A stretch of DNA of 64,000 nucleotides from Callipepla californica brunnescens. Its lineage: Eukaryota > Chordata > Aves > Galliformes > Odontophoridae. Positions 7,168 through 36,996 of the stretch are shown here, piece by piece. Under the pieces are notes generated by a model that did not search any database, was not told the DNA's origin, and saw nothing but the letters and a program-made list of their open reading frames with translations. Within the stretch, counting starts at the first letter, position 1; each line of letters opens with the position of its first letter. Location of the stretch: positions 372,001 through 436,000 of the forward strand of contig JALIRH010000147.1 of NCBI GenBank assembly GCA_023055505.1. Reading direction: 5' to 3'. A program made the translations under genes and the position numbers.

Positions 7168-7358
7168 TTACATCATACAAATCATCCCATACATTAGCTG
7201 GGGTGGGAGGTGCAAGGAACAGCCAGCAAAGTGCTGAGTTCATTCCAATCAGAGGACCTGAAGATCGGGTAGCTACTATCAAACCGTTTGTGTTGCCAAT
7301 TCCGATGATATTTATGGGGCCCTGATGTTATGGTTCAGTGGGGAGTCACTATCAAGTC
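7168..7358 (+). pseudogene. pro: Retroviral protease C-terminal fragment in unit 1
   Basis: This is the only clearly non-telomeric part of the unit. In the frame of 7194 it reads LAGVGGARNSQQSAEF and then IKPFVLPIP before a TGA at 7323-7325. A GVGG segment followed by a KPFVLPIP-type strand is what the C-terminal half of a retroviral aspartic protease looks like. In a second frame the end reads WGPDVMVQWGVTIKSDF, the expected last strand and helix and the start of the pro-pol linker, so a frameshift lies near 7310. The N-terminal half with the catalytic Asp-Thr/Ser-Gly is absent. The left boundary is a direct join to G-rich telomere-like sequence at 7167/7168. The fragment cannot be functional. 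The assignment rests on motif order and on unit 7, where the same bases run straight into reverse transcriptase. Confidence 0.8.
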
Positions 7359-9159
7359 CAAACCCAATCCAAACCCCAAACCTACTCCTATTCCTAAACC
7401 TTATCTTAACCCTAAACCAAACCCAAACCCAAGGCCCTCCCCTTCTCTCAGCCTAACACTCAAACTAACCTAAACCCGAAACTAACCCTACATTTATCCT
7501 AATCTTATCCATATTCTAAGGCCTAACCCTACTCTGACCAGAAAGCTCATGTTGTCTAAAATCTACCCCTTACCTAAAACCTAAATCGACAAAAAAACCT
7601 AACCCGAAACCTCAACCTAACTCTTCTCCTAACTAGAACACCAGCACTTCACCTTACCCTAACTGGAAACCTAGGACTAAATCCTTACCTTGTCCAGAAC
7701 CCTATTCCTAACCCAAACCAGAATTCTAACCTCTACCCTAACCAAAACCCTTCCCCTAAACCTAAACCTAATGCTACCCTCAACCAAACCCTAGCCCTAA
7801 ATCCTACCCTAAAACCAACACCACGTTTAAGCTCAAACCTCAAGCCTCAAAGAAAGCATCAGATTACCGCAGATCTCACCTAACACTAACCCCAATCCAA
7901 TCCCTACTACTAACCCCAAACCCAATCCAAACACCAAAACTATTCCTATTCCTAAACCTAACACTAAGCCAGAACCAAACCCAAGGCCTACCCCTTCTCT
8001 CAGCCTGACACTCAAACTAACCTAGACCTGAACGCAACGCTAAATCAAATACTAAAACTCACCCTTAGCCAAGGCCCTTTTAGGACCCTTCCCTGGTCCT
8101 AAAACTAAAGAGAACCCTACCCCTTCCACTAAACCTTCATCTACATCCCTAACCCTTACCCTAAACCTAAATCTACACCAAAACCTAACCCTAACCCTAA
8201 CATGTCTTCTAACTGTAAAACTAACGCTTCACCTAACCCGAACTGAAACCCCAGGACTAAACCTTACCTAACAAACACCTAGCTATATTCCTAACCCTAT
8301 CCTGAAACCTAACGTTAACCCTAACCCTAAAAACAACTTGGAACCAAACCCTAACCCTAACCTAACCCTTATCAGAACCCTAAATCTAATCCTAACCGTT
8401 ACCTCAATTGAACTCCAATTCTTCCTGAAATCTAAATGGGACCTTAAAACCAACCCCAGATTGAAGCCCAACCCTAAACCTAACACAAAGCATTAGATTA
8501 CCACAGCCATCACCTAACTCTAACCCCAGCCTTAACGCTAATACTATCCCAAACACTATTCCAATTCCTAAACCCAACACAAACCCAAAAACACAAAGCC
8601 TACAATTCTCACAGCCTAACACTGAAAGGAAACCTAAATCTTACCCTAACTCTAAAACTAATCCAAAGCATGACCACAATTTCAACTCTAAATCTACCTT
8701 CAAACTAAAGCTGACCCTAACACCAACCTCAAGCCCAACCCTAAGCCTAACACAAAGCATTAGATTACCACAACGCTCACCTAACTTCTAACCCCCACCC
8801 TAACACTAATACTAAAGCAATCAGATTCCAAATACTAACCCAATTCCTATTCTGAAACCCAAAACTATTCCAAAAACAAACCCAAGGCCTAACCTTTCTC
8901 TCACCCTAACAATCAAAGAAAACCTATTCCTAAACCTAATCCTAAATCTAGTCCTAACCCTAACCCTCACCCTTAATCTAACCCCAACCCCCACCCAGAA
9001 GCTAACACTTAGCATTGTACAATACCTAAACGTACCCCTAATCCTTATCACTAAACCTAAAAGGAACCTGAAACATAGTGCTAAATCCGAACCCTAACCC
9101 TGAAGACTAACGCTAACAATGAACCAATTCCTATACCTTTTCCTTCCTCCAAATTGATT

Positions 9160-9945
9160 CCTAGCACTAACCCTAACCCTACATTAACCCTATCCTAACC
9201 CTAACCCTAACCCTAGCCCTAAACTACATTAACCCTAACCCTAACCCTAACCCTAACCCTAGCCCTAACCTAACTCTAACCCTAACCCTAACCCTAAACC
9301 TAATGCTAACCCTTACCCTACCCTAACCCTAACCCTACCATACCCTAACCCTAACCTACCCTAACACTAACCCTAACCCTAACCCTAAACCTAAACCTAA
9401 ACCTAACCCTAACCCTAACCCTAACCCTAATTCCTAACCCTTACCTTAACTGTATCACAATCCCTATCCTAATTCTTACCCTAACCCTAACTCTTACCTA
9501 ACCCTAACCCTAACCCTAACCCTAACTCTAACCTTAACCCTAACCCTAACCCTAACCTAACCCTAACCCTAATCCTAACCCTAACCCTAACTCTAATTCC
9601 TAACCCTTACCTTAACTGTATCACAATCCCTATCCTAATTCTTACCCTAACCCTAACTCTTACCTAACCCTAACCCTAACCCTAACCCTAACCCTAACCC
9701 TAACCCTAACCCTAACCCTAACCCTACCCTAACCCTAACCCTAACCCTAACCCTAACCCTAACCCTAACCCTAACCCTAACCATAACCCTAACCCTAACC
9801 CTAACCCTACCCTAACCCTACCCTAACCCTAACCCTAACCCTAACCCTTACCCTAACCCTAGCCTAACCCAAACCCTAACCCTAACCCTACCCTAACCCT
9901 AACCCTAACCCTAACCCTAACCCTACCCCTAACCCTACTTTACCC
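9160..9945. repeat. Near-perfect CCCTAA tract, unit 1
   Basis: Several perfect (CCCTAA) runs of about ten copies occur, for example around 9665-9725. A block with TGTATCACAATCCC is present twice, starting near 9430 and 9596, giving a local 166-bp duplication. Units 2-5 carry this block once. Confidence 0.9.
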
Positions 9946-34515: not shown

Positions 34516-34673
34516 CCTAACCCTAATCCTAACACTAACTCTAACTTTATTCCTTACCCTAACACTAATCCAATCCCGAACCGTAACCCTAATCCTAGCC
34601 CTAACTCTAACTTTATTCGTAACCCTACCCCTAATCCAAACAATAACCCTTACCCTAATCAAACCCTATCCCT

Positions 34674-36996
34674 ATTCCTAACCCTTACCCGAACCGTATC
34701 ACAATCCCTATCCTAACTCTTACCATAACCCAAACCCTAACCTAACACTAACCCTAACCCTAACCCTATCCCTAACCCTTACCCTAACCCTAACCCTAAC
34801 CCTACCCTAACCTTAACTCTACCCTAACCGTATCCCTACCCTAACCCTAACCCTAATCCTAGCCCTTACTCTAACTTTATTCCTAACCCTACCCCTGATC
34901 CAAACACTAACCCTAACCTTAATGTAACCCTAACCCTATTCCTAACCCTTACCCTAACTGTATCCCATTCCCTATCCTAACTCTTACCATAACCCTAACC
35001 CTGATGCTAATGCTAACCCTAACCCTGAATCTAACCCTTACCCTAACCCTATCCCTTACCCAGAAGCTAACACTTAGCGTTGTACAATACCTAACCGTAC
35101 CCTAACCCTATCCCTAAACCTAAAAGGAACCCAAACTCTAACCCTAAATCTGTCCCTGAGCCTAACCTTCAACCTTACCCTAACCTTAACCCTAACCCTG
35201 TTCCATTCTCTAAACATATCTGTAAGCATTACCTTCATCCTAACTCGAACTCTACCCTAACCCTATCCCTTTGACCCCAACACAAAACCCAGATTGAGCC
35301 TGACCCTAACCTAGGTAGCATCAAGTGTATGTAGGGTGAATTTGAGTTTTAGGGTCAAAGTTAAATTGTTAGTTTTAGGGTTAGGGTGAAGGATTGCTTT
35401 AGTTCTAGTATTAGGGTGTTTGGGGTTAGGGTTAGGGTAAGGATTTTGGAGTGGATTAGGTTTAGGGTCAGGTTTGGGGGAGTTTTGGGGTTAGGGTTAG
35501 ATTTAGGATTAGGGTTAGCAAAAAAGTTGTTTTAGTTTTAGTTTAGGTTAGTGCTAGGATTAGGTTGAGTGTTCTTGTGAAGTTTAGGTTTAGGGTTAGG
35601 TTTAGGTTTAGATTGAGGTTTAGGGTAAGGAGTAGGGTTCATTTGACTTTTAGGGTCAGAGTAGAGTTAAGTCGTGTTAGGGTTAAGGTTAAGAACAGGA
35701 TTCAGATTCCAATTAGGTTTTGGGTTCCTACTAGGGATAGGCCTCAAATTAGTGTTAAGGTTAGGGTTAGGGTTAGGTATAGGGAAAGGGTTAGTGTTAA
35801 GGCCAGGGCAAGTGTATGGTTTAGGGTAAAGATTGGATTTAGGGTTAGGTTTAGATGTAGGTTTGGTTTGATCGTTAGGGTGTGAGAAGGCACCGGCCTT
35901 GGATTTCATTTGGAGATTGGGTAAGGTTTAGGAATAGGAATAACATTGGTGTTTAAAAGATGATTAGTGTTAGTATTAGGGATAGGGTTATGGTTAGAGT
36001 TTAGTTAGGGTTGTTAGTTTTAGAGTGAGGGATAGGGGTATGGTTTGGTCTAGTACTTGGGTTAGGGTTTGGGATAGTCCTAGCATTAGTGTTAGGGTTA
36101 GGGTTCCGTTAGGGTTGTGGTAATCTGATGCTAGGTGTCGGGATTAGGGTTGTGCTTAAATGTGGGTTTGGTTTGAGGGTCAGAGTTAGGGTTAGGGTAG
36201 AGTTAGAATTAGGGTAAGAGTTAGGATTAGGTTTAGGATTAGGATAAAGATTAGGTTAGGATTAGTGTTGGCTTTAGGGTTGTGTCTGGGAGAAGGGTTA
36301 GTGTTAGGGATAGACTTAGGGTAAGAGTAAGTGTTAGGAATAGGCATAGGTTTTGGGAAAGTTTCAGAGTTTGGACTGGATTTATGATTAGGGTTAGGGA
36401 CAAAGATTTTTTGAGATTTATGATTAGATTTAGGGAGAAAAGTAGGCTGACTTGTGGTGTTAGCAGTAGGTTTAGGTTTAGGTTTAGGTTTAGGATTCCA
36501 TTTGTATTTATTGATCGAGGTTGGGTTAGTTGGAGTGTAAAGGTCAGAGTAGGGTTAGGCCTTGGGATAGGGTTAAGGTTTGGAATAGGATTAGGATTCA
36601 AATGATGTTACGGGTTGGTGTTAGGGTTAGGGAAAGGTTAGGATCAGGGTTGAGGTCGGGGTTAGGTATAGGAAAAGGGTTAGTGTTAGGGCTAGGGCAA
36701 TTGGAAGGGTTAGGCTTAGGCTTAGATATTAGGGTTAGGTTTAGGCGGAGGTTTGGTTCGAGTGTCAGGGTGAGAGAAGGGGTAGGCCTGGGGTTTGGTT
36801 TTGGGTTACATCATACAAATCATCCCATACATTAGCTGGGGTGGGAGGTGCAAGGAACAGCCAGCAAAGTGCTGAGTTCATTCCAATCAGAGGACCTGAA
36901 GATCGGGTAGCTACTATCAAACCGTTTGTGTTGCCAATTCCGATGATATTTATGGGGCCCTGATGTTATGGTTCAGTGGGGAGTCACTATCAAGTC
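34674..36996. repeat. Telomere-derived macrosatellite, unit 7 (left part)
   Basis: This unit is collinear with the others from its anchor through the strand switch (35310-35315), the G-rich block and the 191-bp protease-derived piece. It then leaves the consensus at 36996/36997. Units 1-6 continue with CAAACCCAATCC. Unit 7 continues with AGATTTTCGGGAGG, which is retroviral pol. About 736 bp of consensus (equivalent to 7359-8094 of unit 1) are absent from this locus. Confidence 0.9.
36806..36996 (+). pseudogene. pro: Protease fragment continuous with pol, unit 7
   Basis: The left junction matches units 1-6, but on the right the retroviral sequence does not stop. The DVMVQWGVTIKSDF frame continues past 36996 into the pol linker and reverse transcriptase. 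This is the evidence that the 191-bp piece in the other units is a truncated retroviral fragment rather than unique host sequence. The protease N-terminal half, gag, primer-binding site and 5' LTR are all missing. Confidence 0.85.

Follow-up and report, generated by a model that had tools for sequence, protein, structure and literature searches.

Tandem composite repeats described in complete ape assemblies (PMC11168930) have kilobase-scale units that combine transposon-derived with other repeat parts and are amplified in tandem. In birds, the complete chicken genome contains CNM higher-order repeats, TTAGGG sequence within centromere cores, and, on chromosome 32, three tandem Kronos_I endogenous retroviruses (ERVs) (PMC9974502), and PO41 repeats are a further avian case (PMC4301066). 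We analyzed a 64,000-bp stretch of the Callipepla californica brunnescens genome (bases 372001 to 436000 of contig C147, which has 678,690 bases; here called the window) in which seven units of telomere-like DNA each end in the same 191-bp fragment of a retroviral protease. The units of this array, 4.8 to 5.2 kb long, stand head to tail and join telomere-like DNA to an ERV-derived protease piece, and the array fits the macrosatellite, or tandem composite repeat, kind. It shares with the ape repeats the kilobase-scale unit, the mixture of transposon-derived and other repeat parts, and tandem amplification; unlike them, it sits inside larger repeated blocks, and its single-unit source arrangement persists. 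We consider it highly probable that the array arose by tandem duplication of a segment of about 5 kb whose right edge fell inside a virus remnant and whose native flanks were both kept at the array ends.

The chicken repeats are similar in the close proximity of a satellite of about 41 bp, telomere sequence, and an ERV, and in the expansion of heterochromatic amplicons. They differ in that three full-length Kronos_I elements form a centromere core on chromosome 32 and the higher-order units consist of CNM, whereas the present unit carries a 191-bp protease scrap in about 5 kb of telomere-like DNA; it is likened to CNM, PO41, and Kronos by description only. Nothing resembling the present unit was found in the portion of the chicken account covered, and no description of this array was recognized among the titles and abstract openings of open-licence papers listed in a literature search. 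A segmental tandem duplication with near-blunt breakpoints creates one novel joint and keeps both native flanks. The array corresponds to this in having one novel joint, with a 1-bp overlap, and retained native flanks, and it departs from it in being repeated at two levels and present in thousands of copies.

The 191-bp piece starts at positions 7168, 12228, 17083, 21920, 26771, 32010, and 36806 of the window, on the plus strand like the units, provirus pieces, satellite, flanking repeats, and second C-rich copy described below, and every copy is identical at 191 of 191 positions. Successive copies are 5060, 4855, 4837, 4851, 5239, and 4796 bp apart. All 7 copies share the left joint, TTTTGGG/TTACATC (a slash marks the joint), while the right joint is CAAGTC/CAAACCC in six and CAAGTC/AGATTT in the seventh. 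Six copies, starting with the one at 7168 to 7358 (assigned by PDB and Pfam matches and by identity to the other copies), adjoin C-rich telomere-like DNA; the seventh continues into retroviral pol and env and a putative long terminal repeat (LTR). A first-pass annotation, made from the sequence of the window, had described the same 191 bp at the same place in all seven units, ending at CAAGTC before C-rich DNA in units 1 to 6 and running into pol in unit 7. Both descriptions hold exactly, and the peptides that it quoted were located in the frames it gave.

Within the piece of unit 7 (36806 to 36996), positions 36808 to 36960 matched residues 51 to 89 of M-PMV-type protease chains (PDB 1nso, 3sqf, and 6s1v; E value of 0.002), and the longer 72-amino-acid frame matched an M-PMV-type protease at an E value of 0.0024. 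The match to the Pfam profile RVP covered positions 42 to 89 of 101 (E value of 0.036) and, at 14.8 bits, fell under the curated cutoff of 20.7. Taken alone, this protease match is suggestive. The identity of the piece was settled because an open reading frame (ORF) that crosses its right joint matches reverse transcriptase (RT). This ORF (36964 to 37239) begins within the 191-bp piece and matches residues 30 to 86 of 7sr6, which we take to be the HERV-K polymerase, at an E value of 1.2e-9; the RT match starts no more than six bases before the end of the piece, and Pfam gave no RT profile match for this ORF. Since the ORF across the joint matches the amino end of RT, the joint in unit 7 has native retroviral order. 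By its PDB match and its adjacency to RT, the 191-bp piece is, as judged from sequence, the carboxy-terminal half of a betaretroviral protease, continuous with pol in unit 7; the active-site half falls outside it. The annotation's protease assignment and its view that unit 7 keeps the native protease-to-pol junction of the source were therefore borne out. The profile search that it proposed was borne out for RT, matches to which were found downstream, but not for protease at the curated cutoff.

The search was extended to the whole genome (1.085 Gb in 321 contigs; C6, C20, C28, C40, C47, C49, C53, C57, C82, and C147 are contigs of this same assembly). A DNA search with all 191 bp returned 0 matches, presumably because very common words were skipped, and exact patterns were used instead. 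A 32-mer of the piece had 2693 exact matches, compared with 0 for the reversed control, so recurrence of the piece is not due to chance. On C6, C20, and C28, there was one exact match per contig. The order at these three loci is 590-bp repeats, C-rich start, G-rich part, 191 bp, pol, env, LTR region, and TGGGTC satellite, and their provirus is about 94 to 99% identical to that of the window. In 3 of 3, the G-rich part, the 191 bp, and pol follow one another without interruption, and the C-rich start is preceded by a native left joint, ...GCTAACCC/CAAACCC, that is identical at the base level. In C20, part of pol is missing and the TGGGTC satellite matches only over the first 315 bp; C6 lies about 77 kb from the end of its contig. 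Because the single loci already have this order, the 191 bp can be read as the ERV part inside a duplicated segment, and retroviral gene order makes the joint with pol the ancestral one.

The three kinds of joint were then counted. The unit-to-unit joint (191 bp followed by C-rich DNA) had 2220 matches with at most 1 mismatch, the native pol joint had 579 with at most 1 mismatch, and the native left joint had 429 with at most 2 mismatches; each reversed control gave 0. The sum of the first two, 2799, is near the 2693 exact 32-mer matches, though these counts have different mismatch limits and need not agree. The 191 bp thus occurs beside this pol as well as in the units, the opposite of a piece found in units but never next to it. 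Unit 7 does preserve the source arrangement, as the annotation proposed, but it is far from unique in doing so.

Positions of joints were taken from zero-mismatch places among the matches listed, on C47 and C49. These contigs have 34 and 52 exact 32-mer matches, which, grouped at 12 kb, form 10 clusters on each, of 1 to 16 units; 5 of the 20 clusters have one unit. Among the matches listed, pol joints stood at the terminal unit of a cluster in 18 of 18 cases. Unit-to-unit joints stood at nonterminal units in 65 of 66 cases and at terminal units in 0, the remaining one belonging to a unit without an exact 32-mer. For native left joints, the nearest downstream unit was the first of its cluster in 10 of 10 cases, at a distance of 3.7 to 10.6 kb. 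Two terminal units had no pol joint among the matches listed, and one of them (locus L004) has pol by alignment. When four cluster starts on C47 were read, three showed 590-bp repeats, native flank, and C-rich start, unbroken; the fourth differs. Seven of the 17 loci retrieved from C47 have pol and 10 do not. Units on two contigs were 99.4 to 99.9% identical to unit 7 over 1400 bp, and the pol flank was 98.25 to 100% identical among 8 array blocks over 800 bp. On C40, three pol joints were among the matches listed, with neither an exact 32-mer nor a listed unit-to-unit joint; these may be additional blocks that have a single unit or have diverged.

What the assembly shows directly is the joints, the order in which they occur, and the loci with one unit. 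The origin that we propose for them would begin with about 590-bp repeats, degenerate C-rich and then G-rich telomere-like DNA, a 5′-truncated provirus (late protease, pol, env, and one putative LTR), and TGGGTC satellite, in that order. The tandemly duplicated segment, about 5 kb long, would have had its left break in the telomere-like DNA (...GCTAACCC/CAAACCC...) and its right break 191 bp into the provirus (...ATCAAGTC/AGATTT...). The new joint, ATCAAGTC/CAAACCC, would be the scar of this duplication, at which the old sequences share a single base (C). The native flanks of both breaks would stay at the array ends, with unit 7 keeping the right one. Copy number would later have been altered, most likely by unequal exchange; the cluster sizes of 1 to 16 and the near-identity of units next to more varied pol flanks would fit unequal exchange with homogenization within arrays. 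The whole block, tens of kilobases long, would itself have been repeated and spread to many contigs, and we infer that the joint between 191 bp and C-rich DNA had a single origin before these outer blocks multiplied. Most likely, then, the 191-bp scrap was amplified because one edge of the duplicated segment fell within a virus remnant. The retroviral piece is a passenger, and no sign of function was seen here.

Several observations weigh against this origin or against the ancestral status of the single loci. Part of the C6 unit consists of N, and its single-unit state was deduced from its length of about 5 kb. In an alignment of 1417 columns, one gap-free column splits the 3 singles from 24 array units. 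Over the pol flank, C6 and C28 lie inside the range of the array blocks (98.25 to 99.25%), and C20 alone is clearly outside (95.6 to 96.5%); judged by sequence comparison, C6 and C28 are not divergent enough to establish that they are older than the amplification. Among the zero-mismatch matches listed on C47 and C49, 10 of 20 clusters have a left joint and 18 of 20 a pol joint, and one nonterminal unit on C49 has neither joint. Genome-wide, left joints are fewer than pol joints (429 versus 579, at different mismatch limits); the first unit is incomplete in some clusters, for instance in the window and at one of the four C47 starts read. When the 7 units of the window, 17 loci of C47, and the 3 singles were placed in one tree (27 sequences), its internal branches were near zero and it did not root the array.

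The best-surviving alternative, to which we give substantial but minority weight, concerns the single loci: they would be arrays that collapsed to one unit and dispersed. It is compatible with the duplication and alters only the status of these loci. One-unit clusters do occur within arrays, as on C47 and C49, and the pol sequences of C6 and C28 are no farther from array blocks than some of these are from each other, so that C6 and C28 could be collapsed arrays. C20 fits less well, since it lies beyond the array diversity and has both native flanks.

The first-pass annotation had favored a different course, in which an ERV remnant was reduced to 191 bp and captured next to C-rich telomere-like DNA, and the resulting unit was amplified, with the last unit as the source. 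Pol is indeed retained in the last unit, and that part of the account stands. Trimming and capture we consider improbable: in all three singles and in three of the four C47 starts read, a native left flank of its own precedes the C-rich start, and a single tandem duplication accounts for all the joints, so no separate capture step is needed. Still less probable is an array that had 191 bp followed by C-rich DNA throughout and gained its terminal pol by exchange with an independent provirus, since, although the identity of the 191 bp might support such homologous exchange, the three single-unit loci have the same telomere-to-191 joint plus pol, the pol flank is as alike among the 8 array blocks as common descent predicts, and pol stands at 18 of the 20 cluster ends. 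Two further models were rejected. For a deletion that drew the C-rich start from C-rich DNA to the right of the provirus, the best downstream match began at unit position 737, with 89% identity, and the native left flank of the unit start elsewhere also speaks against the model. For de novo telomere addition at a broken ERV, the strand beside the ERV is G-rich into it, which would be the wrong orientation for a healed end.

In the window, the left neighbor of the inner array is a series of about 590-bp tandem repeats with a tail (1 to 5028, by self-comparison); similar repeats lie left of the unit in C6, C20, and C28 and left of three of the four C47 cluster starts read. Unit 1 (5029 to 7358) is left truncated: the C-rich part is missing, and so are more than half of the CTAACC tract and the greater part of the native left flank. 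Its match to this tract begins at 740 of 1252 (window position 5046), and of the 760-bp native-flank query, 53 bp matched in this region, at 4750 to 4802, and nothing more. Five complete units, each with C-rich part, CTAACC tract, G-rich part, and 191-bp piece, extend from 7359 to 32200. In pairwise alignments, they are 99.6 to 100% identical in 5 of 6 segments, and the CTAACC segment, at 97.2 to 100%, is variable in length. Unit 7 (32201 to 36996), the last, ends in its 191-bp piece and is 96.2 to 100% identical to the complete units by segment. The seven CTAACC/CCTAAC tracts score 63 to 76% matches and are not canonical interstitial telomeric repeats.

To the right of the array, telomere-like DNA joins the provirus remnant directly at 36806. 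Pol pieces of this provirus were searched separately, one by one. Broken pieces between 37065 and 39602 matched the Pfam profiles RVT_1 (5.6e-20 and 3e-7), Integrase_Zn (4.4e-9), rve (3.1e-20), and IN_DBD_C (3e-8), covering RT and the zinc-binding, core, and carboxy-terminal domains of integrase; the thumb matched RVT_thumb under the cutoff (1.3e-5). An env piece of the avian gp85 type follows (39626 to 40762; Avian_gp85, 1.2e-9). Protease half, RT, integrase, and env thus stand in pro-pol-env order with recognizable domains, as in class II ERVs. The best solved relatives are the M-PMV-type protease and the 7sr6 polymerase, and the combination of betaretrovirus-like protease and RT with a gp85-type env across 36806 to 40762 suggests mixed ancestry. 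A putative 3′ LTR region, with both boundaries placed by eye, spans 40771 to 41176. It occurs once in the window and once at each of the three single loci (94.9 to 98.3% identity), and no second copy was present among 41 sequences compared. Because the active-site half of the protease is outside the piece and the LTR region has a single copy, the provirus is a 5′-truncated remnant. It is not a complete provirus with gag and two LTRs, having one LTR region and telomere-like DNA at 36806; gag was not searched for.

A TGGGTC-type satellite with periods of 10 to 42 bp lies at 41177 to 43141, placed by sequence inspection and by the single loci. Its repeats presumably resemble the avian CNM/PO41 satellites. 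Past the provirus, a diverged second copy of part of the C-rich segment (45502 to 46091) is 89% identical over 590 bp to 13155 to 13720; the corresponding stretch in C6 and C28 is about 96% identical to the unit. This hints that the region around the provirus underwent an older and longer duplication. Beyond it are about 10 kb of degenerate C-rich telomere-like DNA, nearly G-free on the plus strand (46700 to 56900), and degenerate short repeats, first of the AATGTCAGAATGTCACAATG type and then of the TATGGGGCAGC type (57900 to 63700).

On C47, the spacing between cluster ends is 48 to 102 kb (mean, about 80 kb); on C49, it is 16 to 145 kb. The 590-bp array at C147:367230 restarts at C147:460972, 93.7 kb on, with near-identical upstream reading frames, so one outer block is longer than the window. 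Extrapolated from C47, 579 blocks of about 80 kb would make up perhaps 46 Mb, some 4% of the assembly. Pol joints among the matches listed change strand within C53, C57, and C82; the outer repetition is therefore not purely head to tail. In the outer block to the right of the window (L034, L035, and L036), other retrovirus-like reading frames were seen by eye on both strands. It is conceivable, though rather unlikely, that the inner array is re-amplified in place, separately in each outer block, by a process, such as recombination-based copying or circle re-insertion, that its opposed C-rich and G-rich telomere-like halves would drive. If this were true, the locus would be a two-level, self-renewing repeat engine that takes up about 4% of the genome and marks particular chromosomes.

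Arrays of this kind are already known, and what is unusual here is how legible the origin is. The origins of satellites are usually erased by homogenization. Here, the joint that founded the array, the native flanks on both sides, and loci with a single unit coexist, so that one can follow, to the single base, how a macrosatellite was born and measure how it was homogenized afterward. The array further indicates that, carried along as a passenger, a fragment of retroviral coding sequence can rise to thousands of copies with no transposition.

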